The notes below the pieces were generated by a model, which ran no database searches, was not told the origin of the DNA, and worked only from the letters and a program-made list of their open reading frames with translations. Source: Endocalyx cinctus (taxonomy: Eukaryota > Ascomycota > Sordariomycetes > Amphisphaeriales > Apiosporaceae). From it: a stretch of 64,000 nt of DNA. Of the stretch, positions 1 through 38,885 are shown one piece after another; position 1 is the first letter of the stretch; each line of letters begins with the position of its first letter. A program made the translations under genes and the position numbers. Where the stretch lies: positions 3,842,978 through 3,906,977 of the forward strand of contig BCKC01000003.1 in the NCBI GenBank assembly GCA_001600455.1. The letters are read 5' to 3'.

Positions 1-1253
1 GCCTTCAGGAGCTCAGAAACCCTCAAAGACGGCTGAAGAGTGATTTGGAATGGCAAGGTGTTGATAAGAGCACCAACCACCTTTTCGATCCCTACTATTG
101 GTAGAGTACGACCAGAAAATACTACTCCAAACGATACATTCCGTGAGTCAATGTATTGACTTAAGACAAGTGCCCACGCCGCATAAAATAGCGACGTCAT
201 GGTGACGCCCAACTGTTTTGTGCATTGGCGAGCCCGCTCGAGCACAGTGATGTCTATGCTTAAATTGTGACTTGTGTGCACCGAGTTAGCTCTAAGTCCC
301 GGTTTTGGTAGTTGTAATTCGCTCTTAGACCCTTCGACAGCTTCCTTATGCCTAGCCCAAAACTTTTGATCTTCGGGTTCCGAAAGGTCTCTTAATCTTG
401 CTATATTTTTCATAAAGCTGACGAACGAGGGGCTCGGCTCGACATATATCCCAGAAAGGAGACGCCGATGCTTACTTAGAAGTATTGTGCTGGAATATTC
501 ATCTATCAGAGCATGATGAATATTCCAGACGACCGTACTTTCATAATCTGTGCCGCTGATCTTGAAATGAAAAACTTTAAACTTCATACCGACGAAGTCC
601 GCGTCGAAGTGAAGATTTTCCCAGGGGCCACTACGTTGTCTTTCATCCACTATTGTAGTTTCCTCCCATATCAAGCGGCCTTTTTCTTCTTCGACAAGAC
701 AATATGTCCCTTCAACTGACTCAATCTTCGTTCGAAAAATAGGCTCTTCTTTTGCGAGTAGTTCCCAGCATTTCTTGACTTTCGGTATATCCTCCGGGCG
801 GTACATCTCGTAGTATCGTATAATGTTACGGCTCTCCCATGTTTTACTCCCGTGAACGAAAGATATTTGAAGATTGGATGCTTGAGTACGCCTGGATTCA
901 TTTTGGTCCTGGACCTCACAGAGGGTCGTATTTAACCTGTCAAGTAGAGGCTGCTTATCCCGGTCAGGGGCAAAATCTTCTCCAATAGAAGTCTGACTTT
1001 TAGCAACTTCATCGAGGATCTCATTAACAGATTTGGCTCCCATCATCATGGCGGCAGTAAGAAAAATGCCTCTGGAGCGAGATGAGACAACAATTCTGAT
1101 GGCTGATAACGAGTCACCCCCATTTCGAATAAAATTTGCATCATAATCAATATCGTGTATGGGTAATGCTAAGTGACGGGAAATCTCTTGCGTGAGTATT
1201 TTCTTTAGATTGTGCTGAAAGGTGTCGAGACAGCGCACGAGGGACTTCGGCAT
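1..1253 (-). CDS. Non-ribosomal peptide synthetase, 5' part (carrier + condensation domains), cut by window edge
   Basis: The frame is open for 417 codons from an ATG at 1253 to the left edge, so the 3' end lies outside. Residues ~10-85 form a peptidyl-carrier domain with FIRNGGDSL, where Ser48 would carry phosphopantetheine. Residues ~130 onward form a condensation domain: an AKEEPIFRT stretch resembling the family C2 motif, the catalytic HHALID at 246-251 (the usual Gly after Asp is Glu), and INTLP at 397-401 matching the NTLP-type C5 motif. No adenylation domain precedes the carrier. The frame is open upstream to a TGA near 1327, and a T-rich stretch ending in ACAG at ~1274 could be an acceptor, so the start is uncertain. 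It is divergent from the gliK-like gene with a 480-bp gap. In an ETP cluster the NRPS makes the diketopiperazine scaffold; the substrate here cannot be read. Either it starts T-C, or it is a 5'-truncated relic. Confidence 0.85.
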   Translation of the reverse strand, partial: MPKSLVRCLDTFQHNLKKILTQEISRHLALPIHDIDYDANFIRNGGDSLSAIRIVVSSRSRGIFLTAAMMMGAKSVNEILDEVAKSQTSIGEDFAPDRDKQPLLDRLNTTLCEVQDQNESRRTQASNLQISFVHGSKTWESRNIIRYYEMYRPEDIPKVKKCWELLAKEEPIFRTKIESVEGTYCLVEEEKGRLIWEETTIVDERQRSGPWENLHFDADFVGMKFKVFHFKISGTDYESTVVWNIHHALIDEYSSTILLSKHRRLLSGIYVEPSPSFVSFMKNIARLRDLSEPEDQKFWARHKEAVEGSKSELQLPKPGLRANSVHTSHNLSIDITVLERARQCTKQLGVTMTSLFYAAWALVLSQYIDSRNVSFGVVFSGRTLPIVGIEKVVGALINTLPFQITLQPSLRVSELLK

Positions 1254-1461
1254 GGCGGAAATCACAGAGTTACTCGTAGTTACTGTTACAAAGAAAAAAA
1301 AATTGCAGAAACTGTAGTCTGCTACTCAGCAGTGGATTGAATGCTGGGGTTGGCTAAATATTGAGGTGTCGTAGTACACGATCCTAGAGGAATATACTCC
1401 ATTTCAGTATTACCCTAGCTAATCAAATCGTAAATCAGCAACCGAAAAAATATAGGTTCTA

Positions 1462-1486
1462 TTTTATTTTATTTTATTTTATTATA
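1462..1486. repeat. (TTTTA)n microsatellite in the NRPS/gliK divergent promoter
   Basis: About five units of a TTTTA pentamer sit between the divergent NRPS and cyclotransferase starts. The ~480-bp gap is the presumed shared promoter. No other motif was recognised in it. Confidence 0.7.
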
Positions 1487-1733
1487 TTTTATGGCTTTTT
1501 ATTTTCCTAAAAAGGAAAAAGAGGGAAACCATTTTCTTTTCGGTAGCCTGTATTTTAAAAAACTTGTTCCATATCGGATCCCGAAACAAACGATCCCTAT
1601 AATCTCTCACCACTACGAGGTATCTATAGCTAATTCATTAGCAGGTCAGCCCTAATTCATCACCGACTCAGTTAGAGTTAAAACAAGATATGCCTCTATC
1701 AAACCTTCGATCTCGCTGCTCGCTATATTCGTC

Positions 1734-2546
1734 ATGTTGATTCTTCACACTCTTCCTTCCCCACAGAAAAATGTGTGGTATTTCGCATATGGTTCGAACC
1801 TCGCAGAAGAAAAGTTTATTCAGCACCGGGGCATAGTACCCATATCGACTTCGGTCGTTACGGTACCTGGTTGGGGTCTGATGATGGATAGCGCCGGATT
1901 CCCATACTCGGAACCTGCCTTTAGTAGTATATCACAACTCCCATCAACCCTTGACCAGGATATCATTAATGTTATTGGTATTGCATACGAGCTGACCCCG
2001 GAAATGTATGAGAAAGTACTGGCCTCGGAGGGTGGAGGTATAGCTTATGCCGAAGTCGAAGTTCGGGCTATTGAACTTGACATCCGCAATGAAGAAGGTT
2101 TACACGTAGCGGGACGTACCATTCTTATAAGATCACTCATAACTGTGATGAGAAGAAAGGCTCGGCCAAGCATCCGATACATGGTATGTAGATCCTTTTA
2201 TTTGACGATTTCCGTGAGGCTAAAAAGAAATATCAAAAAGAATCTTCTGAAACAAGGGGCAACCGAGTCTCGAATACCTTTAGAGTACCAGAAATTTCTA
2301 GCCCAGATACCAGTTTACCACCCACCTACCGATGCGCGAGGTAAGATGGGTGCCAGATTATTCCAATCATTCTGGGTGCCCGTCATGTCATGTATGAAAA
2401 AGGTAACTAAGGCAAGTTTAAGACGAAATGGTACAGGGTGCGCGCCACTCTGGGTCATCTACATGGTTAGAGCTACTGTTTTCTTAATGTGGTTCTACCA
2501 CGACTACATTCATGCTTCGATTTGGGGAAGAGGTGATGGGTTATGA
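1734..2546 (+). CDS. gliK: Gamma-glutamylcyclotransferase, GliK type
   Basis: The predicted protein has 251 aa. It opens with the family substrate-loop motif YFAYGSNL (residues ~16-23) and has the GliK-like stretch SEGGGIAYAEV, whose Glu is the expected acid/base. The C-terminus RGDGL with a hydrophobic stretch before it also resembles GliK. A 57-nt intron (2184-2240, GTATGT...AAAAAG) is inferred: it lacks a stop and is divisible by three, but removing it joins RYM to NLLKQG, the form I recall for this family. In gliotoxin-type pathways this enzyme removes gamma-glutamyl groups from the bis-glutathionyl intermediate. Neighbours are the NRPS (divergent) and the AsaB-like gene (convergent, 65 bp away). 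The frame is intact. Family assignment is firm; the ETP role is inferred from the neighbourhood. Confidence 0.85.
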   Translation: MLILHTLPSPQKNVWYFAYGSNLAEEKFIQHRGIVPISTSVVTVPGWGLMMDSAGFPYSEPAFSSISQLPSTLDQDIINVIGIAYELTPEMYEKVLASEGGGIAYAEVEVRAIELDIRNEEGLHVAGRTILIRSLITVMRRKARPSIRYMVCRSFYLTISVRLKRNIKKNLLKQGATESRIPLEYQKFLAQIPVYHPPTDARGKMGARLFQSFWVPVMSCMKKVTKASLRRNGTGCAPLWVIYMVRATVFLMWFYHDYIHASIWGRGDGL

Positions 2547-2611
2547 TTTTTAAGGTGCTAGGCAGAAAGCTAATTTTTAAGGCTATTGATATCTGTCCAT
2601 ATTTCCTTATC

Positions 2612-3692
2612 CTACTCGTGAAATACTAAACAGCGGACTTCGATACTCTCTCGTAAAGGGGCAGAAGCTGGTGCTTCGGGATGAGGAAACGCTCCATGGG
2701 GACACACTGAAACATTAAGCTCATCAGTTATCAATTCTTTATGACGAATGATCATCACTTACACTTCGCTACTTTTTCCTCGCTGTCCCAAATCTTAATC
2801 AGGGTTACTTCGTTCGTCTGTTGTCGAGAGAGGTAATACCACTCTTGTTCGCGAGAGTAACAGATAGAAACGGTCTGTCCAACCCGTTCGGTACGCTCCT
2901 TGAAGAGATCCGTAGGATGTACATCTGATTCGGTGAGAGTGCGATAATCCATTGTGGCCAAAGCCCAGTCTTCTACGGTCCCATGAATCGGTCGCCAGAC
3001 ACTTTTGCGTTGTGAGTTATGATCCGTTAGCTGAGATACCCTAATTGATGATTGCTTTTCACTCCACGGCTTACTTGATGACCTGTGCTCTTCCCTGGAG
3101 CAGTCTTTCGGCGTCATCTCCAGCGTGGCGCTTTACTCTCTCGATAGCTCCTAAGCTTGATCTGCTCATAATGAGTTAGTAATGTGTTTTTCCCCCTAAA
3201 TCGCCGGTCTTGGTTTACTGGTCAACATGGGCCTGTTCTGAATATTAGTTGGTAAAAACTCAAGGACTTAATTAGAACACCTACCAAAGTAGCGGGCTGC
3301 TCTTTACCATTATCATTCTGCTCAGGGTGTAGAGAGGGATCACGTTTTCGATACGTATGGTCGAATATAATCACGCGTGAAGCCCCAGTTTTCAACTTTA
3401 CAATATTCTCAACTACCGGATAGTACGCCTTCTCAATCATAGGTTTATTTTTCTGCCTGATAGCCGTAACGAGCTCTTCTTTAATCCCCATATCATCAAA
3501 GAAACTAAATCCATGGATGTCTAGATCCCAACTTTCTTTCGTAGGTCTAGCATCATTAAAATAGACAGGATAGTCTTCGCTCTTGAAGTTCTGTTGTGGG
3601 AAATTCTCTTGCGTTTCCTTGCGGATATATGGTGCCTCCTGTTTCCCCACCCATGGTTCAAGAAACGACATATGGCTTTGTACTCTCGTCAT
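2612..3692 (-). CDS. AsaB / GA4-desaturase family oxidoreductase (CmcJ-like)
   Basis: Five exons give 280 aa. Inferred introns are 3233-3284, 3162-3218, 3002-3074 and 2707-2762, all GT-AG, with ACTAAC and GCTAAC branch-like sequences in two. Splicing restores family landmarks that single frames hide: TGASRVIIFDHTYR in exon 1, AHVDQS across introns 1-2, VINVWRPIHG across intron 3, and the terminal PHGAF...SIEVR block in exon 5. The family includes fungal tailoring enzymes of secondary-metabolite clusters (asperfuranone/astellolide-type AsaB, gibberellin desaturase) and bacterial CmcJ. The substrate here is unknown. An upstream in-frame ATG at 3704 would add four residues. It is divergent from the MFS gene (~390 bp) and has no obvious disabling mutation. 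I do not recall this family as standard in ETP clusters, so it may be a cluster-specific addition. Confidence 0.8.
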
Positions 3693-4080
3693 TTTTTTTT
3701 TCACAAACTATGATTATGGAACACTAACTCTCATCCTTATACGTTTCGGAGGCCACCCAATTTATTTATACCATGCTACATAATTAACAAGTTTGAATAA
3801 TATAGTTATTCATTACGTATTCTTCGGAAATGAGATACTGTTGGATTCGGTATCCGGATTATGGTTGATGTGGTTAATGCCCGACTTTACTATGAATACC
3901 GATAACATGTTCTCCGAGACTAGGCGAAAATCTCTCATAGAGTCACCAGGTAACATTGTAACCAAACAAAAGTGTCTAAGCTAATCATGAGTTCTTGAAC
4001 TGTCATAGTTGCTCGAAGAACTGAGGTCACATGCTTGGAGTAGGATGTAATATGATTTTACTCATCCAAGAACGTTGATT

Positions 4081-5642
4081 ATGGATAATATCGTTGACTC
4101 TGAAGTAACTCCCCTTCTCGTATCAATCGAACCTAATATTACCGGCTCGGATACTCTACATCAGCTACCGAACGACAATAGAACGAGAGTTGCCGCCCAC
4201 ACCCAAGAAAGTAAGATCGAATGGGTTCTCCCAATAGCCTTCACCGCAGCCTTCGCCATAGCAGCTACGTCTGCGACTTCGATATATGCATATGCTGATA
4301 TACTATGCCGAGACCCCGCGCATTGTGAGCATGAGGAACGGAACAGGTATTCTGAGGCGGTCGCGCTGGCCACTCTCATCTCTAATATCACCGGGATCGC
4401 TGTTATTGGTTTCTTAATGAAATTGAACGAGAATTACCCGAAATTTGGATTGGCTTTTTGGATACTTTGCCGTTCAATGGGCATCGGGATTCTCTCATTA
4501 GGGGGCAAGTTTACTACCGCTCCGGCTCTCAGCACGAGCCTCCATTCTCACCCTTTTTTGTGATAAAAGGACAGAAGGGTCATTTTCACTTTCCACTAAT
4601 GTTATAAAACGAGAATCTAGTCATTTTTCACGACATACGTGTTGCCATCGCAAGTCAGATTCTCGAAGGTTTGGCGACAGATAACATCCTCCACTATACC
4701 TTAGCAGCTATATACATTCGCACCCACGATAGCGATCGATTTGCCCACCTAATGCGTACTTCTCTAGCACTTTACATGGCCGGCACGTCGATCAGTCCCT
4801 CTTTCGTCAACATACTTCCCAATTTCATTTTGAGCTTTTTTGTCGCCATCGGTTTACTGGTCGCGTCGCTATTGTACCTCGGGCTTATCGTTCCTACCTT
4901 CCCGAGTAAAAGGGACTGCGATTCATCCGACGCCACCGAAAATACCGATGGTCCCGGATCTCGTCCAAAACCTTATTTTAGCCCTCTGTCTAATTTACTT
5001 AGAGACCGCCATACGATCCTTCCGGCTGGTACAATCCTTCTGTATAATTGTTCCCAAGCCTACCTTTTCCCCGCCATCATGGTCCATACTTCACTGAAAT
5101 TTGGCTTTACCAGTAAGGAGAATGGATACATCGTATCCATAGCTGCTGCTACCTCATCGGCTTGCCTTTTTTCCGCGTCCTATTTCGTTCCTATGTTTAG
5201 AAAATACAGGAAGAATCCCCAACAATTACGCGAAACAGCTCGGCGGGAGGTTGACACGGCTGACCACGATGGGGCAACGGATAGGCCACGTCTTTGCTTT
5301 GGCCCAAACGTAATATATGCCTTTCTCTCGATGTCTATACAGCTGTTTTCTCTGCCGATGCTTGCGCTTATCAAGGTACCCCGTGCCGTGTACGCGATAA
5401 TGGTACCCATTGCTTTCGGGCTCACGGCTCCGAGCCATATCAAAAGTCACGGAGTCATTGTGGCTGCGGACAAGAACGCAGCTTTGGCGACGTTGGTCGT
5501 CATGGAAAGTCTCGGTGGCTTGGCCTCGCCTGTAGTTTTGGGTATGTTTCAGAGCTGGAGCGGTTCAGGAACTGTATTTTTAGCTTCAGCTGGTATAGTC
5601 GGCGCTTCCATACTATGTTTATTAAGTAGCGTGTTCATATAA
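4081..5642 (+). CDS. MFS transporter (about 12 TM) with a GC-AG intron
   Basis: Two exons give 481 aa. Exon 1 (4081-4504) has an acidic cytosolic N-terminus followed by hydrophobic segments. Exon 2 (4621-5642) carries the family stretch SLALYMAGTSISP and six or more further membrane segments. The intron 4505-4620 appears to start with GCAAGT rather than GT. It has ACTAAT 20-odd nt before the CTAG acceptor, and the join keeps phase (Gly-Val then IFHDIRVA). No GT donor in the region keeps the frame and the conserved LEGLATDN block together. It is probably an exporter, perhaps of the cluster product. It is not the 14-TM DHA2 type of GliA, of which a broken relic lies at ~17.2-17.7 kb. It shares a ~390-bp divergent promoter region with the AsaB-like gene. 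Substrate unknown. Confidence 0.8.
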
Positions 5643-5738
5643 ATGTGAAGCAAATATATATTGACCGATATATTAATTTAAAGTGAAATAGCATGTGAAG
5701 TTTCAACTTAAAACCCCTTGGGGTACTGTATAACGGAA

Positions 5739-7222
5739 TCACCTTCCTACATCATGCATCAGCACGTCATCAAGCCTCTTCAAAGCTTCCGTGAGCTTTC
5801 CCGGTTCGATGGCGAAGTTAAGTCGGGCCCAGCCCTTCTCACATTCCGGCAAGTGATAACCCGATCCGGACGAGACGGAAATGCCGTGTTTCATATATAG
5901 CGCCAGCATCGCCTCTTCGTCTTCTTTCGTGCGTGCACCCGGCGCTAATTGAGCGAAGACGAAAGGGGTTGAGGTGGCCGGCACGTACCGGATGCCATGT
6001 TTCTTTAGTATTTCGGTCAGTAGCCCGTAGGCTTCCGAGAGGCGTTGTGCGTTCATTTCCAATAGCCGCGGAAGGTCTGAAGAAGTTAATAGATCGGCGG
6101 TTACGAGAGCCGCTAGCGAAGACGTCTGCGTGTTAGAAGTCAGTGCTATCGCCGTAGCTAACGGCCTATTGGCCTGCGTGATGCAGCAGCCCTATGTTAA
6201 GATTAGTTTTTGAACAACCCCTGAATTGGTTCAACGCTAATCACTTACGACTCTGATACCGCTAGAGCCAAAATCCTTACTCACACTCCAAATCGTATGG
6301 ACGTAAGAAGGATTGCATCCCATACCCTGGATATCTATTCCCATGGCGGGCACAAAAGGCTCAGACGGAGCTATTTCCGGATTTGGAAATTGGGACATGG
6401 CGTATATCTCATCAGAAATGAAGTGAATATTTTTTTCGTTCGTAAACTTGACAATTTCCACGATAAGCTCTTTGGGGTAACATTGACCGAAAGGATTATT
6501 CGGGTTCGTCAGAAGTAGTCCCTTCACCGGATGTGGAGACTGGAGCAGAGCATCCTCCAGAGACGGTATTAGCTTAGTGGCTGAGAAGACATCATCAAAG
6601 CTCTCCGTTGGGACAAAGACTGGCTTCACTCTAGACCTCACGTTCAACAGCCAGTCAAATCCATCTACACCCGGTTAATTAGCATACTGGAGCATATCAA
6701 GAACGAAAGGATAGGTAAGAAAAGTTATATGATATTTCCGGCGGATAGACTCACTCCAGCATGGTGTCGGGACGAGAATACCATCCCCAGGCTCACATAT
6801 ATTGAACAAAAGAGAGTCTAGAGCAAATGCTGCTCCAGGTGCAATTGTGATATGTGCCTTTTCAACGGGAATAACGGGAGAGAAATAGGAGTTGAAGAAA
6901 TGTGCTAAAGCACCTAAAACATTAGAATCACCGTTTAAGGAGTCAGGGTAGGATAGGTGCTGTGCCAAGGTTAATTACACAGCTTGGCTTCAACGTGTGA
7001 AGGATTACGCACATCGCGTGATAGTTTTTTCTCGAAACTATCCTTGTATAAGTGGATTATTTGGTCTCTGAGCAGCCAATTATCAGAAGTAGTCATATCG
7101 ATGACGGAAGTTTCTGTTGATAGGTTCTCTCGAGCCTGGACAGCGTTACTGATGCGCGGCCAAATAGCTGCGACATTCTCCGAGCCTCGGGATGAGAGTC
7201 CGCAGTCATCGAAGGGATCCAT
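5739..7222 (-). CDS. gliI: PLP-dependent C-S lyase of the ACC-synthase/aminotransferase family, GliI type
   Basis: Four exons give 427 aa, the usual length. Introns 6960-7012 (GTGCGT), 6665-6754 (GTGAGT) and 6192-6248 (GTAAGT) all end in AG, and phases agree. Landmarks in order are LSSRGSENV near the N-terminus, APGAAFALDSLLFNICEPGDG, NPNNPFGQCYP (PLP/substrate loop), SDEIYA (Asp and Tyr that contact PLP), and SVSKDFGSSGIR with the Schiff-base Lys at ~268. The C-terminal domain ends with EKGWARLNFA. In gliotoxin biosynthesis GliI cleaves the bis-cysteinyl adduct to release the two thiols, the step that gives ETPs their sulfur. It lies tail-to-tail with the MFS gene (96 bp). All conserved residues I can identify are present. 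The general family is certain; C-S lyase rather than ACC synthase activity is inferred from the cluster. Confidence 0.87.
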
Positions 7223-8867
7223 TGCATGAGCCTATGGGGAATTAGTTGGATAAGTGTTCGCGAGTATAAGATTTGGTTCTCAATCTCCAAAGCTTATTCC
7301 TTCTGAAAAGAAAAACATGGGGCAAAGGATTGTTTTGGCATGTTGGTACATTATATACGGGCGACGGGGCTCGTAGTTGACTAGGGGTTGTAAAATGATG
7401 CCGGAAGGTCAGTGGAGATCAGCTGAGCCCGGGCTGCCGGGCTCAAATATTTCCCTATATTAAGATTCTGCGAAGCTTCCGTTAAAAAAATATTATAACA
7501 AAGCAACAACACGTATCGCGAAAAAGATATAATTCACACTACTAGCAGGCTCGCACCGGAACCCCCCAGACTCCCCTAACCTAACCCTAACGCGGCGCCG
7601 AGTCGCAGTGTAGTGGCAGGTTTATAGCATATTTACAGTGAAGTAACCCTGTAAAAAATCACCAAGTCAACATGCGTTAAGCTACTATTAAGTGGAATAA
7701 AAGCTACCTAGGGCTGCCAGAGGGTGTAACATTTAGACCCAGGCAGCTAACCGCTGTTAACCCTCCCGGCAACTTTTTGCCCTCCCAGCCTCCCTGGTCA
7801 GCTGCGACCTCGTGAAGCTGTAAGCTCCACCTCTTCGGTTCCCGGCTTATGTCGTACTTGTAGTTACCACCCAGTACAAATCTTGATGAATAAGTAGTTA
7901 AAAGGCGCAATCTCGCAAGTTTACTTTTACGTCTATAGTAATGAATGAAAATCGAAATTATTTACATATATCATATGTCACAATTGCAAAATGTGTAGTT
8001 GAAGAAGTACCAAAGTATAACTGTTAGCCGCATCGTAGCAAATAGCCCTGTTAGCTACTACTAGCTGCCAAAACTAACAGGAAAACGAAGGTAAGTCTTA
8101 GAAAGGGCGTAGAAATGAGAACTAAGGTTGTTTCATTTACTATGAGGTTAATGAGCAACCACATAAACTAATATAATTAAGTAATTAGAATAAGGTGTCA
8201 CTCAAACCTCTAAATTTTCACAGAAGCTTTACTAGCCTCATAGGGAGGCTGGGGGGCACCCCCTAAGAAACCAACGAACGCGAAGGATTCTTTTTTCTTT
8301 CACAGTAATATAATTTAAAGACAAGGTCGATTCTGCGTGCTGGGTTGTGGTTCAGGTTACTTAGGGTTGGCCAGGGATGGAAGGCATTTATATCTTCTCC
8401 TCGAGAGCCTTCGTAAATACTTATCTAATTAGCCATCGGGCTTGTAAAAAAAAAAAAAAAAAAAAAGAATTAGAGCTATAGCTACTATGTACATTCGATA
8501 TGTATGATTAGTTATATTTTTTGTTTATACGGGCCGTTCCACCGAAATCCTTTCGCACGGCCTACATCCATCAGAGCCTACTACGAATCCTTCTGTAACG
8601 AGTGTCCAATCTGCAAGCATAACCAAGAGACAATAATCCCGTACGTTTCGTATAAGTTCCAGGGCTGGCCTTTCTCACCACATGCTCTGATGCTGTGTAA
8701 TATTATTGAATGTCTAAGTCTAAGTACCCCTCTTCACTTCCAGGAATAACCATGCGAGATTAGATCTCGGGAGGATGCTGGAGTTTGTCATATACCAGCA
8801 GTTAACCCCCCTCACCATTTGGCTGAAATATTGTCCTCCCTACCTTTTCCTCATCAACTCTTTCAGC
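7223..8867. other. Intergenic region between gliI and the Zn2Cys6 regulator
   Basis: About 1.6 kb without a credible gene. It holds a telomere-like CCCTAA tract (7575-7592) and a 21-A run (8446-8466). A moderately GC-rich block near 7700-7910 has an open minus frame that I do not recognise, possibly old repeat sequence. Confidence 0.6.
7575..7592. repeat. Interstitial telomere-like CCCTAA tract
   Basis: Three consecutive units, CCCTAA, CCTAA and CCCTAA, equivalent to the common fungal telomere repeat TTAGGG on the other strand. The tract is short and could be chance or a relic of end-joining. Confidence 0.5.
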
Positions 8868-10170
8868 ATGTATCTATCTCCTCTAAGGCAAGTCATTTTA
8901 TATAATATGGGCCAAATCAAATGTAGCACTAATACTGGGTGAAGCCCTGAAAGTTCGGGTGCAGCCCGGGGGAGCAATACCCGGCAGGTTAGACTTCGTA
9001 CTGCATGCAATCAGTGCTGTGCGGCCAAGGTCAGTTTTATTCCGGCGAGATGAGATTACAAAAATAGACGGAGGCTTTTCTAAACTAGAAAAAATAACAA
9101 CGCAGGTAAAATGTTCGGGTGAGAGAACCGGCTGCGCGCGATGCCGCGGAACTCGCTCAGAGTGTGTTTATTTAGAATCACGAGCCGGCAAAGTTCCTGG
9201 GATAAGGGCGAAAAAGAAGCAAGTCCGAAATGGAGAGTCCAGTCGAAATTCCAACCTCCCACCCAGCAACTCAGCCTGTTCCGGCGATACGCCGGCCGAT
9301 CCAACCAGCGCAACAGCATTTTCCGAGCCCATTTCCCAGAATTCACATCGCAAGGAGATGGCACCTTGGACGGCTGAGTGGAATATGGAGACTACCGATA
9401 TCAGTGACGACTTCACCAATGCTTCTAGCGTTGATACGTCCAACCAGTCATCGAAAGACGGACCGTTTCCTCTATGCGATTCTACCATAACTTCTCCACA
9501 CTCAGGAGAGTTCTCGTCAGCCGTGATAGATGCCAGCTTCACAGACTTTGACTTTGCGTTTTCGGCGAACGATACACCTTCGGCCAACCAGCCAGCCGAG
9601 ACGTTTCCAACGAGACCTATGGCGCTTGGGTTAAAACCGAGGAGCGAGATAGACAGCCAGTGTTCTTTGAGCTGCTGCGAGATGATCACGGATCTGGAGA
9701 ATCTGATCATGGATGACGTCAAGACGTTCAAATTCCTCTTACGAATCATCAAGCAAACGCTAGATACGCTAGCGCATTTAATCGACGTGCAGCAGAATTC
9801 GAAGAATCTTCGGTGTCTTATGCTCTTCTACACGCTTATGTATCAGATCATCGAGTTAATGGAAATTTCCTTGTCCACGGCGGTAACGGATAACAATCGG
9901 CGGCGAAGTAGGGGCCTCATCGCAACCGCGCCAAACTTGGGTTTCGGCGATTACTCGACCGACGCCGAGGAACTGCTGGCTGGTAGGAGGCAGGCAATAC
10001 TTAGAGAAGTATCGCACTGCACAGATATTATAGGAAAGCTGAAAGGCATCGCTACGTTCGAGAGGGACCCGGGACACGTCTCGGGCCAGCTTCAGTGGCC
10101 ACACACCTGTCACTTTGACCTGGAGCTCAGACTCAAGGACATTAGGGAGCAGTTAAGAAAAAGTGATTAA
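8868..10170 (+). CDS. Zn2Cys6 transcription factor, AflR/GliZ-like cluster regulator
   Basis: The predicted protein is ~376 aa. The binuclear zinc cluster is split by an intron (9030-9105, GTCAGT...CGCAG): ACNQCCAAK precedes it and VKCSGERTGCARCRGT follows, giving C-x2-C-x6-C-x6-C-x2-C-x6-C. A basic linker (RAKKK) follows. After a low-complexity Ser/Thr/Asn region come helices such as DVKTFKFLLRIIKQTLDTL, like the AflR-family C-terminal domain. The 5' end is tentative: the zinc-cluster frame has a TGA at 8940, bypassed if an intron at about 8892-8987 links the in-frame ATG at 8868 (MYLSPL) to VRLRTACNQC. A GC-AG alternative (8888-8974) is also possible. It probably activates the surrounding cluster and reads divergently from gliI across 1.6 kb. 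The regulator identity is strong; the start is weak. Confidence 0.8.
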
Positions 10171-10694
10171 TCATTACAACACCTTATGAGAGTCTCAAAG
10201 TTGCTGTGCTAATTTTCTCTCTTGCTTACACACACACATCCCCCTCTACTATGACGTGTTTGACAGATCTTATGGCACGCATAGAGTACCATTGTATAGA
10301 CAAATTTATTGACAAGTCTTGTAAGGAGTGAGCCACGATAGGCTTATTCATGGAATAACAATTCATATCAAAGTTAATGCTTAAGGAAGAAAGTCCTAAC
10401 TTTTTCTTCAAGTTTTAAGAGAAATAAATCCATACATGATTCGGGCCCAATTATGTATGGTATCGCCTGAACTAGGCTGCTAGGTCAGAAGCGCGCCTAA
10501 TTTCAGAAGCTCAGCTTGCCTGCTTCCTAATGTATATGTACTAATAAACACTGCACATAGTCGATAGGTGATGGCTTTAGACTGAACTTACAGAGGCCTA
10601 TAGAAGCATAATACGCGGCTGCCATTGTAGCTTTCTTTCTTGTCTCTCCCAAATTGATCGATCACTCACCATACTGACAGACTTATTATACCTC

Positions 10695-10725
<31 letters not shown>

Positions 10726-10900
10726 GAGTAAAACGCAGGGAAGCGGCGTAGAATCCATGGAACTTACGCCTGAATCCTACTTGTGTTGAAGTGTTCAGCT
10801 GATCACATCCCCACCTCTTCAGGAAGTCACTTATATTGGCAGCTAGGTATTTCTACCCGCTACAGCTGCTACTTACGTTGTGGAACATATGAGGATCCCG
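10171..10900. other. Intergenic, AT-rich
   Basis: No gene recognised. It includes a T9/A~20 block at about 10697-10726 that could form a hairpin. Confidence 0.5.
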
Positions 10901-12420
10901 CCCTGTCCCCCTCGATGAGATTTTATTTCAATACTTCGTCCCGATATGCCCAGCTGCTTTTACCGGTTCAGTCTACGCGACGATCATTCGTGCCACTCTA
11001 TTCCCCAGTTCAAGAGCAGAGCTACAATAATCATTTTCAGAACTGCGAACTGCCAAGAAGCGGCCGGGGCAAACACGAGTGCCATATCCCTATCTGCAAC
11101 GTCAAATATGAGCCCATATTCCACTCACCTGTACCAGAATACATCTTCCTGCGTACGTACGTAGTACTTACTTATCTAATTTAACATGGAAGACACGAGG
11201 TAGTCGGTGGTTACTTACGCAAAGTAATTGGTCGTCATAGTTGTAGCTATCCCATGTGCTGCGTCTCCTATGCTTCCTTCACTCTCGGCCACGATATGTA
11301 GCTCAGCGAATCGAAACTCATCAAAAACGCCTTCGCGGTCCATCTACATTGCCCGGGGCCGAAGTTCCAATCCAGAGTTTATACATCAGCTCCTTCGCTA
11401 ATCTTTGGCAGTCGATATAAACGGTTGATGCATACCGCATAAGTGACTATTCGATGTAGTCAGTGTTATCCTCGTCGATATTTCCGTTACACCGATCTAT
11501 GTGATACTCTAGCACCGCCACTATCATGTTTACGTATTGTGTCAGCTTCCTTCGATGCCACGCTGCAAGAAGGAATGAGAACAACTCTCGAATTAGGCCT
11601 AGTGGTGGTTTCACGATAACGAGGGCCGTGCCAACAATCGATATGACGAATTCGATAGGAAGCATAGTAAATTCATCATTTTAACATAGCTCTTGGCCCA
11701 TGAGAATCCACGATGCCGGCCCGATGGACGATTGCATTAAAAAGGCATTGTGCGTTGTGAACGACTCCATGTGTATCTGCCCTCAATTACTGCCGTGTAC
11801 ACGCATTCGACATGTCTGTTTACTTACCTTCCTGTCCTCTTAGCTCGGCTTTCAATGCATGCATGATCCCGTTTTCAATTATAGGTGTGAGGCGTTCTAT
11901 TGTAATTTGTCGGTTACCTATAATTCGAACCCAGGTCGAGTGACACCGTGGAACGAACGAGTTCGTAAATTCAATCCCATTCTCACCACTTGCACTGTAT
12001 CATCAATATCATATAGGTTTTCTACGCTAGTATGAAGCAAGAAGCCCTTACGTGGGAGGATCGAATTTAGCTCGGTTGCGTGGATGAGAAAAGAGAACAC
12101 GGGCTTGGAAACGCATCCTCCAAGAAACACTCACACTGACGATGGCTCTGAAATGCTCAGCTGAGCGCAGTCGGCGACTCGTAAAGATGAAAAATAATTG
12201 GGAGGGAGAACTAATAAATCTTTCGCCCATCGGCGTATCGAGAATGGCTGTCCCGTAGGCTTAGTGACGTTAAGCCATGGCCAAGTAACAAGTCGGAGTT
12301 TATTAATGATGGACGATCTCTGCGCGCTGCAGACATATTTCCTGGTAACCTTTCCACGCCAAGTCCTGGATATGAAAAGGCCAAACAGCTCAATATGAGG
12401 CCCCCAGAGACGTCGCGGGT
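10900..12420 (-). pseudogene. Cytochrome P450 relic (probable ETP tailoring oxidase)
   Basis: Short stretches in different minus frames line up in the right order for one fungal microsomal P450. An N-terminal RYADGRK and LPPNYFSSL region lies at ~12.2 kb, a mid-region including LHTSVENLYDIDDTVQ at ~12.0 kb, and the helix block beginning LPIEFVISIVGTALV at ~11.6 kb. The heme-loop GYGTRVCPGRFLAV spans 11045-11089, with a following LKMIIVALLLNWGIEW (~11.0 kb) and AGHIGTKY (~10.95 kb). The Cys ligand is present. However, the frame changes between the heme loop and the next helix, several in-frame stops interrupt the C-terminus, and the mid-section changes frame near 11.70 kb, so no full-length product is possible. 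Introns may account for some breaks but not these. Exact ends are uncertain. The position inside the cluster suggests a GliC/GliF-like enzyme. Confidence 0.65.
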
Positions 12421-13883
12421 GGCCCAGTTGTCTGTCTAGTAGAAATGGACACACCAGCGTTATGTATTTTGGACTCAGACACAGGAGACGGTAGGGTTTA
12501 TCTGACTACCTGTTTCTATCTTATGTCTTGAAGTGTTCTGATGGAGAGGGGACAGAATTTTGGCTTCAATATCTACTCTCGAGAAACCCGCAGCAGAAGG
12601 ACGGCATTCTACTAAACAATGGACATTGCCAACTCGCGGTTCCCGGTAACACCCTCCTGTATTTCCAGGTATAGTATATCATGGAGCCGTAGGCGTCGGA
12701 AAAAAAGTAGAGCTTTGAATTGAGCCAGAGTTTACCCAAGACTGGGGGACAAGGCTCTGCGTCCATGATGGTCAATTAAGGGGCTTAGAAGCACGAGCAA
12801 GGTATTGGTACCGCCTTCATCACATCATGCCCATGCGCGCGTTGTCATAAGGTAGACAGTATCTAGCAAAATATGTTCGATCCGTGTGTCTTGACCAGAA
12901 TGAGAACTTATTAGCGGAATTCGAAGTGAATAAAGTCAGGTCAGCTTATACCTAGTTAAACCTAGACTTACATATTTTATTTGGATGTATTTCGGCTTCC
13001 GGTTGGTTGAGGAATACGGAATATTCCAGCTGCAGATATTAAGACACGGCAACCGGTCGGTATGCGACATTGATTTAACCTTTGCAACCCTAAAATGCAC
13101 TATTTACTGGTAGGGTCCTAACGTAATTTAGTGGATACTTAAGTAGTCTATGTATACTAATTATGGAAAAGGGGCTGAGGGAATAGTACATAGAGTGGAA
13201 TTCCTCTCTCCTATTATTTTACTACACGTAATTATCTAAGGATTTACCTATACAGCACTGAGAGGTTACAAAGAATGGGAGAAGATACTTGGTTCGATTG
13301 ATCGAAGCTTAGCTAGTTGGCTATCTAGGTAGTTAATCTACGATTAACTAAATACATCGACGCAGAGCCATAAGTAACCCTATTCACTTGTTGCAATATT
13401 CAACGAGCTGAGGTTCTGGAACAAAGATAGCACGTAACTGGAGGTATTATCCAGCTTTTCTACTTTGTAGCTACATATTATTGGTTTCTACTGTAGACTA
13501 CTTAACTTAGCCAGATAACGTGCTGAATGTACCTGCTGCTTCATTCCGCTATCATATTTCAACATCACTCAAGCTATATTACTTCTAAAGCATTTCTTAA
13601 CTCCTTAGACAGTCTCGAGGTAGGTACTTAGAGTACTTATCTAGGCTGCCAGATACCAAGTAAGTCCTTAAGTCCCTACCTCCGAGGCAGTTATGATTTG
13701 GTATGAGGTAGCTAAGGGCACAATTATTACTGATGGTCTAATGTGAAACATGATATCGATTTGTTCTATGATCTCGCCGGAACACCATGAAGAACTATCT
13801 AGAACCTTCCATGTATGATGGTAGGATTCTTATCAGCATTATGTACACTCGCTATATCTAGCACGATAAGTATCAAGACATGA
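12421..13883. other. Intergenic, no feature recognised
   Basis: About 1.4 kb of AT-rich sequence with scattered short TAGGTA/CTAGG motifs. A 69-codon minus frame at 12566-12775 has no recognisable domain. Confidence 0.5.
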
Positions 13884-14905
13884 TTAGAACACGGGCTTCG
13901 CTCCCATTTTCTCTTCTTGTAATCGCGCCGAGATCCCCGCTCCGGTCATAGAGCCGTTCGCCACTGCGTTCGTTGAAACCTTGAACATGGTAGTACAATC
14001 TCCCGCCGCAAATACGCCTTCCACGCTGGTCTCGTTGAACGGCGGGGCAACGACGTAGTCACCCGTAGGCGTAAGTTTTAGGCCTAGTTGCTGGGCGAAG
14101 GGACCCTTGACCTTCGTGATGGGACTATGGGCTAGGAACGCTTCGCTTTTCGCATCCGAACCGTCCTTAAAGCTAATCGTGATATGATGTTCCGAGTTGT
14201 CGTGGTAGGATAGTTTCGAAATTTCTCGGTGGTCGACACGGTATTGCCCCTGGTCCTGTAGACTGACTTCCAGTTCCGATGCGAGGGCTTCATCGCCGTT
14301 GGTATAGATCGTGATAACTTTGGCTAGCGTGGAGGCCATACGTGCCAGGTGTTTTGCCATCTTCGCCGATGCGATCCAGTCTACGGCTAGGACCCCAGCA
14401 GAAGGAGATCCGCGCTGTTCGTAGCCGTGGCAGAATAAACAGTGATATCTATGCTAAAATTAGATGACACCAACAAGCTTGTAAATTTCGGCTTTTAGTC
14501 TTAAAGAACTTACATTCCTCGGGCCCAGCAGTCTTCGTAGCCTGGAATACTAGGGAGTACCTCTTCTACCCCGCTGGCTAGGATTACTTTTCGCCCTAAC
14601 CAGGTGGTGCCGGCAGAATCGGTTGCCTCGAAGTACTCGCCTGCCTTTGAAATTCTCGTGATCTCGACATGTTTGAGCTGTATAGTATTGTACTTCGATA
14701 TATCAGCCCGTGCAGCAGCCCTGAATTCCTCCGGGTCCTTATGATCCCAGGTAGGCATGATGTGTAGGTGCTTGCTGCGGGCGTTGCGATAGCTTCCGGA
14801 ATCGAAGACAAGGGCGGAGTGCAGCTGGCGTGCGAGAGTGCAGGCGGCGCTGAGTCCTGCAAACCCTCCACCAATGATGAGCACGTCAACAATCTCTGTG
14901 TCCAT
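13884..14905 (-). CDS. gliT: Thioredoxin-reductase-like dithiol oxidase, GliT type
   Basis: Two exons give 318 aa, close to the usual ~330 for GliT/HlmI-type flavoproteins. One 65-nt intron (14449-14513, GTAAGT...CATAG) interrupts just before the redox site. The FAD-binding GGGFAG is at residues 12-17, followed by VFDSGSYRNA. The redox-active CLFC (Cys134, Cys137) sits in YHCLFCHGYEQRG. The C-terminal flavin motif is VFAAGDCTTMFK. In gliotoxin producers GliT oxidises the dithiol to the disulfide and confers self-resistance, acting in cytosol and nucleus. All catalytic residues are present and the frame is intact, unlike the neighbouring P450 and methyltransferase. Ordinary thioredoxin reductase is less likely: the lack of any glutaredoxin-type partner and the SGSYRNA/CHGYEQR signature favour the ETP class. 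Confidence 0.88.
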
Positions 14906-15679
14906 CGTTGCAAGCTTGACGTGATCACTTCGAATGCCTATGTACCTTAGCTAGAAAAAAAAACATAAGAAGTAATTATGTGACCATTGAGGATTTAACC
15001 ATGAGCTGTGCACCGTAATTAAGTATTTATGTACCTAAGTAAGTACTTAAGTAAGTACACTAAGTAGGTTATTAAATTAGGCTCACTGATTGCCTGTCTC
15101 GGAAGCCGATTTAGAAGGTTAACAACTAATCGAATAGTGATTCAGTGCTGAACAATCACTAACTCATAGGGTCTGTATCACTACAGTGGGATGCTGTAGT
15201 CCCCCATCAGCCTGTGTCAGAGGTGACTACAGTAAATATTTCTTTTATATAGAGCTCCGTGAAAAAAAAAAAAAAAAAAAAAAACATTTTACTTTACTTT
15301 ACTTTATCTTATTACAACCTTTTCATTTTCAATTAAAACAACAAAGAAAAAGTTAAACAATAAATTATAAAAAGAAAAATTCTTAAATTATTTTTATTTT
15401 ATTTTTCTGATTTATTTTCGCAAAGATATAATTCGGTGAAAACATAGAGTTTTGGTGTAATTTAGGGGGTGGCCGGTTACTTTTGGGACTCTACTGTACC
15501 ACGCCTACCACATAAGAAATAGCGTAAATAGGCACATCTTAGGCACATCTCAGCATTCCGAGTTGGTAGGTTCAGCCAAATTAGTGCACTCTTTGCTTTC
15601 TCTTTTACAACAGTTAACACTTCAACGAGACTTCGATATTGTATAGTATATCGATTGAGATAGTTGGCAGCAGTTACTG
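14906..15679. other. Intergenic, AT-rich, with 23-A run
   Basis: The presumed promoter side of gliT and of the broken methyltransferase. Runs of TAAGTA-like repeats occur near 15020-15070, and a 23-A homopolymer lies at 15262-15284. Confidence 0.5.
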
Positions 15680-16505
15680 ATGGCGACCCTTTCGAGGCCA
15701 AAGCAACTTATTCCTAAAGATAACGACGTACTTAGCGAATTTCTAGGGAGCGTAACGGAATCCATAGCGGGTGGTATGTTAGGTCCGCTAATTCCGCTCC
15801 CTATAGGATGTCATCTCCACGATAATAGGTGCGGTTCGGGAGGTCGTGACCGGAACCATCTTAGATCTACATGTATCGGTAGGGAAAGGCAATATCTCGA
15901 AGACATTTGAGATATTCGCCACCGACCATAACCCAGCACCCCAGGCCTCCCTTCGAAAATGACCGATGAAAACCGTCGAAGTCATGCACGGTAGGGCCTT
16001 GGCTTTTGGCAACGATACATTTACGCATATCATTACCAGCTTCGTAATCTTACAAGCCTAGCGGGACGACGAGAAGTGTTCTGGGGAAATATATCGCACT
16101 TTAAAGCCGGGCGGCCTCGCTATCGCTACAACGTGGGACGATCTACCTACCATGGCGATGTTTCGACGGGTTTCCGAGCGCACGAATCGCACAGATAGGG
16201 TAATGCCCGAGATGTTACAATCGCATATATACGGTGGAGAGGATCTAAGACAAGCAATGCTGAAAGGAGGTCTTAGCGGAGAGAGTATGAAGGTAAGCTA
16301 CTACTCGACGCGCGTCAGGGTCGAGCATACGAGAAGGTGGTGTGAAATTGGATGGTCTATAGGTGGTGGGGCGATGGAAGAGGGCTGGAGAGAAAAAGAC
16401 GAAGAGAGGTGGGATGAATCTATCAAGCTCGCCCCAAAGCTACTGCTCGAGGTACCACAGTATGAACGAGATAAAGACGAAGAAGATACGGGTGGCTTGT
16501 TCTGA
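15680..16505 (+). pseudogene. SAM-dependent methyltransferase relic (UbiE/GliN type)
   Basis: A start at 15680 (MATLSRPKQLIPKDNDVL) leads to GGMLGPLIPLP and a degraded glycine-rich SAM loop ending DNRCGSG near 15.84 kb. From there the coding signal continues one frame over: VTGTILDL, FATDHNPAP (the acidic SAM-ribose position), VMHGRALAF, DTFTHIITSF and IYRTLKPGGLAIATTWDD. This is the standard order of class I methyltransferase motifs I to III. The second frame has a TGA at 15960 and a TAG at 16059. One shift plus two stops with no GT-AG introns able to remove them make this a pseudogene. In ETP clusters GliN-like enzymes methylate the diketopiperazine or thiols. The product may be ended early at ~76 codons. 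Confidence 0.75.
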
Positions 16506-17204
16506 ATGCAACTGCTACTCTAAGTATCAAGTAACTGGCTTAATTTACAATATTTACTTGGTAGCAACAACAACGTTCGCTACGAACTTTAGCAAATTTC
16601 TCATACTCGATGCTTAAGTTAGCACCCATTTTAGAAATTAGAATCCATCCCGAGCTCATCGAAAGGGGGTATGCTTTAGTGAGTAAACGTCGAACTCGAT
16701 ACCGGTACGAAGATGACTGTCATTGATGATAACAATTACCAAAATAACGAAAGGAAAGAACATCTCTTTGCCATAAAATATTGGAGTCAGGAATATATCG
16801 TGCTCCAAGTGTAGTATCTGAAAGATGCAAAGTCTGCGAACAAGGACCATTTGAGTTTCTACGAAAGTATACAAGATGTAAATGAGCCCCTTTTTTCATT
16901 TACTAAAGGAGTGAGGCTTCAATATATAGCCAATACGCTCAAAATAGCAATAATGCAAAGCCTTTTTGTTCAAAACTTGGATTAGCAATCTATTCAAACC
17001 CCATCATGTGGTATACGCAGTATAACAAGAAAGGTTGATGAACGCCTTGACTATCCTACACGAACTCTTTCGATGCCCCGGGAAGCCATCGTTCTGGTAT
17101 AGAACTGTCTGGCTTTGGAAAGTTCTTCGCCGAGTGGCAGCAGTGAATAGATTGACACCGACCGAAGTATATTCAGATGATAAGTTTAATGTCACTGATT
17201 AGGA
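16506..17204. other. Intergenic, no feature recognised
   Basis: AT-rich. Short hydrophobic minus frames at 16656-16874 could be membrane-protein debris, but I cannot assign them. Confidence 0.4.
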
Positions 17205-17681
17205 GTAATGAACTGGGTACTGGTATTGCGTTTCAGAAGGGACAGATCATTTCTCAGATAGTGCTTCCTCCATCTGATATTGCCATCGGCACCTCGACGG
17301 TTCTGCTCATCTAGATTTTTTGGTGGCGCCATAGTCGTGACTGTGGCACAGAACACGTTTCTCAACCACCTGGTGTAAGGTTTGCTAACTCTCAATATCC
17401 CTGGTCTAGATTCTCAGATCATCCTCAATGCTGGTGCCGTACATCTGCGTAACGTTGTTTCGCTGGAGGACCTGTCACAAGTACTCGTGAAGTATAATGA
17501 CGCTGTTGTCGAGACGTTCCAGATTGATCTTTCTCTGTCTAGTATCAACCTGATCGGTGCATTCGCCGTAGAGTGGAAGAGTGCGAAGCAAGAGAAGCAA
17601 TATCTAAGCATGTATAGGACGAAAATGGCGGGAACTTGTAAGGGAAATATTAGTCAAGGAACAAATACTATACTATGGTAA
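17205..17681 (+). pseudogene. C-terminal relic of a DHA2-family MFS exporter (GliA type)
   Basis: The frame beginning near 17205 reads GIAFQKGQIISQIVLPPSD and IGTSTVLLI, then hits TAG at 17312. The next frame gives GGAIVVTVAQNTFLNHLV, a TAA at 17376, then LTLNIPGLDSQIILNAGA, LRNVVSLEDLSQVLVKYNDA and IGAFAVEWKS. This is the order of the last three or four membrane segments and tail of 14-TM DHA2 drug exporters such as GliA. Nothing upstream of ~17.2 kb matches the first ten segments. The gene is therefore truncated at the 5' side and carries two stops and one shift. It sits beside the methyltransferase relic, so the cluster probably once extended to here. Confidence 0.7.
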
Positions 17682-37109: not shown

Positions 37110-38885
37110 CTATACCTTACGGGGATGGTATTTGACCCACAAGTCCGGCTTCTTCCAGAGAATGCGCATCTCGCACGCGGATAGCCAATCGGGAAGTTCC
37201 TCGGCAAGTTCCCAGTCGAACGAGAAGACCATCTTGGCCAAGATAATCTTCATCTCGAGGTAGGCCAAGTTGATACCGAGGCAGGCCCTCGGCCCCGACG
37301 AGAAAGGCTGACTCGCCTTCTTCTCGTCGCCGAAGCCCGCGCCAACCCAGCGCTCAGGCGCGAACGACTCGGGCTCCCGCCAGTACCTCGGGTCGCGCGC
37401 CAGCGGCAGCGGGTTAACGTGCACCGTCGTCCCCGCCGGGACGTAGTGGCCGTCGATGGTCGCTCCGGGGGAGTACCGGGGGGGTCCTAGGGCGGCGGGA
37501 GGGAACATCCGGAGGGTTTCTTCGATCACGCCGTGGAGGTACGGCAGACCGGCGGTCGAGTTCCCGTCGATCGCGTCGGAGGAATCGAACGCGTTGCGGA
37601 CTTCCTTCCGCAGCTTCGCGAGGCGGTCCGGGTTCTTGAGGAGGTACCAGGTGCCGGCGCTGAGCGCCGTCGCCGTCGTCTCGGAGCCGGCGACGATGAG
37701 CGTGTAGGCCTGGCTGACGAGCTCGCCCTCGGTCATCCCGTTTTTCAGCATGTGCGAGAAGAAGTCTTCGCGGCCGGTGTCGCCGAGCTGGATCCGCTTT
37801 TGCGCCTTTTCCCGGGTGAGGACGCGGTGCTTCGCGAGCTTCTCCGTCGCGCCTTTGGGGAGGAGTAAGGGGATGATGAATTTCAGTATAGGCATCTTCT
37901 TCTTCGCCGTCGTCATCGTCCCCATGAATACCGAGTCTAGCAGGATTGACACCCAGAAATGAGACCGTCCGTTTTCTATGGCGCCGAAGGATTCTCCGAA
38001 AGCGAGATCTCCTACAGGAAAAGAAAAAAGATGAATACTCTTGCCATCACAGATCGGGAACAATGGCGGATACGAATATAATGAGAAAAGGGGACAACGG
38101 ACCTATGATATCGAATGACAACCAATTAAATACATCGCTCATATTCAAAGCTTGCTTTCCTTCCTTGCCTAAGTTGGATATCTGGCTAATGAACATGTTC
38201 ATGTATTTGCGAACCACGTCTTCCTGGTCGCGTAGAGATTTGGCGCTGAAAGCGTGTGAAAGTGACTTTCTCTGGCGCGCGTGTTCTTCGGGATCTCTCG
38301 CACTGGAAATCCTCGGGTTGGGATCCCCGTTATCGTAGAATTCTGTCTTAAGAAACCTCTCCTTACCTTTTGAGGCGTGACCGTATATCTCTTGGTAGGC
38401 TTGGGAGGTCCCGAATGACAGCTCGGTCGGACCGATCCGAACAACGTCGCCTTCTCATTTTTAGCGACTTTGTGAGCCATGCGGATATGAATTTTGGAAA
38501 CGTTGTGTTTCTTCTTTACTCAAAACTTACCATACTTGCGATGCAGATCTTGTATTATCAAGGGGTGGCGCCCAGTTGTTAAAGTCCATAGAACCCATAG
38601 CTATGAATGCAGAATAGTCAATAAGGAAGGAATACTCGGCGATATGATCCTATTTACTCACCTCGGAGAGTGGAGCAAGCCACGGACCTGGATATTTGGC
38701 CAGCGGGTGGAAAAATAGGCGATAGACACTACGTGCTACATAGTAAAGTACAGTCTGTGTAAGGCATTGTTATTTAGCGACTTGATAGCATTAGACTATG
38801 AAGTTTCATCTCGACTTACGGCAGCAATACCGCCCAAAACAATATTGGTCGGTGTCAAAATCTGCAATCCGCCGGGTCCTAACAT
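37110..38885 (-). CDS. Cytochrome P450, microsomal (isotrichodermin C-15 hydroxylase-like)
   Basis: Five exons give 492 aa. Introns are 38755-38819, 38601-38661, 38451-38530 and 38012-38102, all GT-AG and phase-consistent. The N-terminal signal anchor spans the first intron (ILTPTNIVLGGIAA then TVLYYVARSVYRLFFHPL), followed by the KYPGPW hinge. Later motifs are AGSETT (I-helix, 300-305), EETLR (K-helix, ExxR at 357-360), PERW, and FSSGPRACLG with heme Cys436. All expected residues are present, in contrast to the P450 relic at ~11-12 kb. The overall pattern resembles CYP65-type secondary-metabolism enzymes anchored in the ER. It probably hydroxylates a terpenoid or polyketide; the substrate is unknown. 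The BAHD acyltransferase lies 1.7 kb beyond its 3' end. Confidence 0.9.

Follow-up and report, generated by a model that had tools for sequence, protein, structure and literature searches.

At the left edge of a 64,000-nucleotide stretch of the Endocalyx cinctus genome (hereafter the window; C3:3842978-3906977, C3 being one of the 15 contigs of a 44.8 Mb genome), and in the DNA to its left, we identified a gene cluster that we read, at a probability of roughly 0.8, as a functional-type cyclo(Phe-Phe) epipolythiodioxopiperazine (ETP) cluster with peripheral losses. The cluster spans ~27 kb from a cytochrome P450 gene in the left flank to a DHA2-like transporter fragment in the window, and it is for the most part a new member of a known ETP family and not a decaying oddity. 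Its open frames, their domain order, their homology and an indirect co-location of their counterparts in relatives were all observed, and the named better-scoring relatives of three of its genes, those for the nonribosomal peptide synthetase (NRPS), GliK and an AsaB-type protein, are from filamentous ascomycetes. At the window edge no gene ends and the cluster continues leftward: the adjoining 10 kb (piece L012) carries the P450, an O-methyltransferase, a glutathione S-transferase (GST) and the remainder of the NRPS. In the next 10 kb leftward (piece L011) we recognised, by eye only, cell-wall glucanase-, cutinase- and major facilitator superfamily (MFS)-like frames.

An earlier note made from the window had described its NRPS as a fragment; the window edge in fact cuts an unbroken frame. 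The whole gene is one open frame of 1590 residues from stop to stop with the domain order T-C-A-T-C (T, carrier; C, condensation; A, adenylation), and a domain scan gave two condensation domains, one AMP-binding domain and two carrier domains. A search for relatives returned 388 matches, of which the best 120 were listed (P0001-P0120), with names that include BcNRPS1 and GliP-like; all of the best-listed thirty (P0001-P0030; 18 from named fungi and 12 without an organism name) were 1500-1656 residues in size, the best-scoring named relative being that of Hypoxylon rubiginosum (50%). When the window protein was aligned with 36 listed proteins (P0001-P0035 and P0038), the T2 serine and the HHxxxD of C1 were conserved in 37 of 37 and the T1 serine in 36 of 37, with a gap in P0020. 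The window NRPS departs from 4 of 125 invariant columns and the other 31 proteins compared (31 of the 36 relatives) from 0 to 5, so that it shows no excess wear. In a midpoint-rooted FastTree tree of 59 A domains, taken from the same 36 listed proteins, 5 other listed proteins, frames of 8 own-genome loci and the window (only one A domain being found for P0038, of 2059 residues), the single A domains of P0001-P0030 and P0033-P0035 and that of the window form one group; of the two A domains in each of the bimodular proteins P0031 and P0032, the second falls next to this group and the first outside it. P0033, from Fusarium gaditjirri, joins a T-C-A-T-C NRPS and a following Aminotran_1_2 domain in one protein.

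Judged from these sequences, having one A domain is normal for the NRPSs of a large known group and is not damage: the 30 best relatives share the size and catalytic residues of the window NRPS. AtaP, described as T1-C1-A1-T2-C2, joins two Phe (PMC6737921), and 719 single-A two-C proteins have been reported in 278 species, 243 of them being PP-C1-A-PP-C2, with a group of 278 proteins mostly predicted for Phe or cyclo(Phe-Phe) (PMC12881047); given these two papers, a single A domain serving two T domains is no anomaly. It is very improbable that the NRPS is instead of the gliotoxin type, truncated so that its first adenylation domain is gone and the enzyme inactive. Such a case would have parallels in the ETP module 2 group, where an M. 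oryzae protein has an incomplete and a B. cinerea protein a degenerate first module (Bushley and Turgeon, PMC2823734); against this, 30 relatives have equal size and residues, and a link to cyclo(Phe-Phe) is described for AtaP, which has the same domain order (PMC6737921). BcNRPS1 relatives have been assigned to the ETP module 2 subfamily (PMC8988988, PMC6941272). GliP itself is A1-T1-C1-A2-T2-C2-T3 (PMC9030297), and the two A domains and terminal T3 of the bimodular gliotoxin type are both absent from the window NRPS. Loss of A1 was rejected on the architecture that the relatives share. A search with a bimodular relative, in which 23 of 66 candidates were scored, found no separate A1 beside the cluster, and the best genome match to the first-module part of that relative was a large NRPS frame on contig C2 (1.3e-53, 32%). 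The impression of a wreck arises because the window edge cuts a single-adenylation ETP synthetase, which actually has the normal cyclo(Phe-Phe) form.

The sulfur-handling core on which the gliotoxin-type assignment had first been made held up, the GliK, GliI and GliT genes all reading open, and extension to the left, which had been proposed as a check, gave the NRPS at full length and exon pieces of a GST. GliK had its best match to a protein of Xylaria (57% over 100% of the query; X. telfairii is its best-scoring named relative) and aligned as one open frame with three relatives of 252-255 residues, from residue 1 to 249-250. Its own Pfam and NCBIfam scans gave no match, and its assignment as a gamma-glutamyl cyclotransferase (GGCT) comes from relatives only, two of which, when scanned, matched AIG2_2 below its cut-off; gliotoxin-type names stood on 3 of 86 relative rows (P0146, P0193 and P0194). 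For GliI, Aminotran_1_2 matched two of the three exon pieces scanned and the GliI domain of the NRPS-GliI fusion P0033 aligned over 6959-5772, the donor of the third intron being read by eye. For GliT, the best PDB match on both exons was GliT itself (4ntc; 2.3e-40 and 3.8e-43). Two further GliT-like genes lie at C3:4915960 (L021; 55%) and C3:4297856 (L022; 47%), and by eye we recognised no other ETP-type gene among the frames of at least 110 residues in these 3.4-kb loci. On contig C1, a GliT-like stretch with three stops (C1:5989107-5989505) lies ~11 kb from an NRPS (C1:5972164-5978281), one condensation match of which contains a TAA.

Next to GliK is a gene of the AsaB/CmcJ/NvfI type. GT-AG borders were located for three of its introns, the fourth intron and the last exon being read by eye, and three exon pieces aligned with four relatives (256-282 residues) from residue 1 to 228-256. 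Two unjoined exon pieces scored 57.4 and 72.3 bits against NF041278 (CmcJ/NvfI/EfuI), the cut-off of which, 80, is set for whole proteins, and the C-terminal piece matched NvfI entries (1.8e-15 for a W199F variant, and 3.6e-15). This gene had been thought an uncommon member, an opinion that the relatives do not bear out. As a proxy for co-location we used exactly equal length of the longest contig per row across independent protein searches, with P0001-P0035 as the NRPS set (P0031-P0032 being bimodular and P0033 the fusion) and P0036-P0120 as the control; the AsaB-type search used one exon of 161 residues and recovered proteins of up to 281-282 residues only. GliK and AsaB-type relatives were on equal-length contigs in 12 of 37 AsaB rows, NRPS and GliK relatives in 8 of 35 NRPS rows, and NRPS and AsaB-type relatives in 2 of the same 35, all three being on a contig of equal length in Diaporthe sp. 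PMI_573. None of the 85 control rows shared a length with either list, the control rows being largely bacterial and testing chance equality of length, not linkage. Locus numbers are neighbouring in Truncatella (TruAng_008427 for the AsaB-type gene and TruAng_008428 for GliK) and near each other in Polytolypa (AJ80_05554 for the NRPS and AJ80_05560 for GliK). Because of these equal-length contigs and locus numbers, the AsaB-type gene appears as a repeated partner.

We offer, tentatively and as a possibility on the unlikely side, a narrower reading: that the cluster belongs to a cyclo(Phe-Phe) ETP sub-family with a recurring CmcJ/NvfI/AsaB-type gene beside GliK, that it relies here on an outside dipeptidase, and that the AsaB-type enzyme would catalyse a further step, an oxidation or a rearrangement, undescribed for ata, acl, tda or boy in the literature covered. 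Going by orders taken from genus names, such clusters are presumably common in Xylariales, with scattered cases in Pleosporales and Diaporthales. The name AsaB is absent from the main text of PMC12881047. Among papers found for CmcJ, cephem-methoxylase or AsaB together with ETP names, two contain it (PMC6149763 and PMC10467112), and an AsaB-type member of ETP clusters may well have been published elsewhere. Since GliK and the AsaB-type gene recur as a pair, they could be used to search for an ETP sub-family with a putative extra enzyme.

Table 1. Features of the cluster in gene order from left to right. Positions are those of the window, or of piece L012 for the left flank.
Feature	Position	Strand	Basis
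P450, open frame	L012 185-1654	-	Pfam 1.7e-38
O-methyltransferase	L012 2547-3903	+	Methyltransf_2 (PF00891, 2845-3903) 1.1e-30 and dimerisation domain, on exon pieces
GST	L012 4404-5236	+	Two exon pieces with GST_N and GST_C domains
NRPS 5' end (T1 and most of C1)	1..1253	-	Frame continues in left flank to C3:3839530 (L012 6553)
GliK-type GGCT	1734..2546	+	Relatives; GT-AG intron 2184-2240 keeps frame open
AsaB/CmcJ/NvfI-type gene	about 2612..3692	-	Relatives aligned over most of their length with exon pieces
MFS-like transporter	4081..5642	+	Two open frames with a probable GC-AG intron at 4505-4620; family only from reading by eye and from hydropathy
GliI-type pyridoxal phosphate (PLP) enzyme (C-S lyase)	5739..7222	-	Four exons; PLP-lysine motif SVSKDFG
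Zn2Cys6 regulator (GliZ position)	8959..10170	+	Zinc-cluster cysteines split by intron; first exon and start codon provisional
Probable P450 relic	10976..12130	-	Heme-type motif 11063-11089; 15, 24 and 24 stops in minus frames
GliT-type dithiol oxidase	13884..14905	-	CxxC motif CLFC; single intron at 14449-14513
GliN-like class I methyltransferase relic	15677..16502	+	Frame change and stops
DHA2-like C-terminal transporter fragment	17379..17678	+	By eye; broken stretch may begin near 16620

Tailoring and export, which the earlier note had considered lost, are represented by the P450, O-methyltransferase and GST of the left flank and by the MFS-like gene (Table 1). The latter had no Pfam match; its hydrophobic segments and two open frames agree with the transporter first proposed. 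The GliZ/AflR-like regulator stands as regards its Zn2Cys6 cysteines, which are present, and falls short as regards its Zn_clus score (18.7 bits, below the cut-off of 21). The three broken relics that had been described are of unequal standing, the methyltransferase and DHA2-like stretches being broken as stated and the P450 stretch, identified by one heme motif only, being a probable relic that is more weakly supported than the other two. Its motif was the sole match in the six frames of the window to a strict heme pattern, which also misses an open P450 frame at 37110-38102 (minus strand; PF00067, 178 bits), ~19 kb beyond the right end of the cluster. None of five pieces of the relic matched a P450 in Pfam (one chance match, to Spore_permease, had an E-value of 0.11), and one piece searched in PDB and elsewhere in the genome matched no P450 either.

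The methyltransferase relic carries 9, 9 and 17 stops in its three frames and matched in two frames (tblastn, 1.5e-7 and 1.7e-26) an intact paralog on contig C6, a 287-residue open Methyltransf_11 frame (L060 5480-6343, plus strand); its class comes from this paralog, GliN-like being a provisional name. A second, weaker paralog (27%) is on contig C10, and a piece of the relic gave five rows in PDB, the best being a designed protein (0.0045). Less than 1 kb separates the C6 frame from a GliK remnant (C6:3242172-3242440), one of the two overlapping matches of which contains stops, and this proximity ties this type of methyltransferase to ETP genes; frame and remnant are possibly what is left of a second ETP-type cluster. 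The DHA2-like piece, its identity being read by eye, matched own-genome frames at up to 43% and had 8 other genome matches. Repeat-induced point mutation (RIP) was rejected as the cause of the relics, since the P450 and DHA2-like stretches have indices close to background; those of the methyltransferase relic (0.97 and 0.87) lean toward RIP, as do those of two measured intergenic gaps. In these gaps (7300-8800 and 12600-13800), TpA/ApT is raised (1.28 and 1.22) and (CpA+TpG)/(ApC+GpT) lowered (0.96 and 0.92), as under mild RIP. As to the "unusual composition" noted earlier, by which gene content was perhaps meant, GC content ranges from 0.41 to 0.53 among the stretches and is 0.465 over 18-64 kb. 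We also rejected the possibility that the relics are copies of an intact near-identical gene: in DNA searches of the genome, 15600-17700 found only itself, and 10600-13300 found besides itself only an A/T run.

Both the methyltransferase and DHA2-like relics lie outside GliT at the edge of the cluster, and with the 8 other genome matches of the DHA2-like piece this would suit an explanation in which they are the remains of an unrelated neighbouring cluster beside a working ETP cluster. We regard this as possible and somewhat doubtful, given that the better of the two own-genome methyltransferase paralogs is the one beside the C6 GliK remnant. MFS class 2.A.1.3 is the DHA2 family. Genes of this class are found in some boydine clusters (PMC12881047, Table 3), which also speaks against an unrelated origin. 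An origin in a neighbouring cluster is in any case compatible with a functional-type cyclo(Phe-Phe) ETP cluster.

Several points weigh against that functional-type reading. The strongest single one, as far as sequence can tell, appears to be the altered C1 motif of the window NRPS, HHALIDE, the full HHxxxDG being present in 36 of 36 aligned relatives. Eight genes are common to ETP clusters (P, T, M, N, G, C, I and J), although several clusters lack one and two hold fewer (PMC2045112); five were found here (P, T, M, G and I, with M and G assigned at family level) and two were not, N being present as a relic only and J, the GliJ-type M19 dipeptidase (PF01244), for which the flank had also been proposed as a check, having no match on C3 in a six-frame genome search. 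The same search gave six PF01244 matches at four places on contigs C1 and C12. Gene C is represented at family level only by the open P450 of the left flank, whose best solved relatives seem to say nothing on membership in the GliC/AclC group; K (the GGCT), outside the eight, is present by relatives. Phe as the predicted NRPS substrate is taken from the group assignment, the comparison with AtaP, AclP and GliP draws on published descriptions, and equal contig size would be an indirect proof of linkage, weak for contigs of chromosome size.

Three broken stretches within the cluster, HHALIDE, the missing dipeptidase match on C3 and the remnant of a GliK gene on C6 would all fit a pathway that is dead or dying as a whole, its open frames being simply younger than the first disabling change. 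We consider this unlikely, since seven genes (NRPS, P450, GliK, AsaB-type, MFS-like, GliI and GliT) read open, five of them with located intron borders, and the departures of the NRPS at invariant columns are within the range of its relatives. Stops between the exon pieces of the core genes fall in GT-AG introns, with one GC-AG intron in the MFS-like gene.

For a functional-type cluster, we propose a pathway that is predicted throughout, in its substrate and product as well as in its catalytic steps, the steps being read from the named families. The single A domain would load phenylalanine on both T1 and T2, C1 would join the two Phe and C2 would release the cyclic dipeptide. The P450 of the left flank would then oxidise ring carbons and the GST add glutathione, after which GliK would remove the glutamyl part, a dipeptidase encoded elsewhere the glycine, GliI would cut the C-S bonds and GliT close the disulfide. 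Decoration of the product may fall to the O-methyltransferase and the AsaB/NvfI-type enzyme, and its export to the MFS-like protein. The losses of the cluster, inside and at its right end, would be those of a methyltransferase, of a DHA2-type transporter and probably of a second P450. To trim the glutathione adduct, the pathway would have to draw on one of the C1 or C12 dipeptidases or on another enzyme, and this cluster is a reasonable system in which to ask which dipeptidase from outside finishes the trimming.

Among known systems, the BcNRPS1/EETBC clusters of Botrytis, Sclerotinia and Monilinia have an NRPS of 1592 residues with equal domain counts and predicted Phe, and their members (a P450, a transcription factor, an SDR, an FAD oxidoreductase, one unknown and the NRPS) differ from those of the window cluster in that GliK, GliI, GliT and GST are not among them (PMC8988988, Table 2). 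The Aspergillus ata and acl clusters (acetylaranotin and aspirochlorine) share the single-A T1-C1-A1-T2-C2 NRPS, as AtaP (PMC6737921), as well as GST, aminotransferase and thioredoxin reductase (TrxR) members (AtaIMG, AtaTC, AclG, AclI and AclD) and the GGCT AclK (PMC12881047); the window cluster, in contrast, has separate I, M and G genes, an extra AsaB/NvfI-type gene and no GliJ match on its contig. The boydine cluster of Scedosporium apiospermum, with 15 genes (the same paper describes fusions BoyPI and BoyMG and lists a BoyPI fusion in Colletotrichum caudatum), resembles it in an NRPS of 1597 residues with one A, two C and two T domains, and in its GGCT, aminotransferase, TrxR, O-methyltransferase (PF00891), GST, MFS, transcription factor and P450s (PMC12881047), whereas the window cluster is without an M19 dipeptidase and, by eye, without a polyketide synthase nearby, and has the AsaB-type gene. 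In the tda pathway to pretrichodermamide in Trichoderma hypoxylon, TdaA couples two L-Phe to cyclo(Phe-Phe), followed by a P450, a four-enzyme glutathione cascade and installation of the disulfide (PMC12028603). The window cluster differs in its lack of a dipeptidase and in the motif of its GliT, CLFC as against CMYQ in TdaE (PMC12028603), and it resembles tda in the glutathione cascade, with candidate enzymes for three of its four steps.

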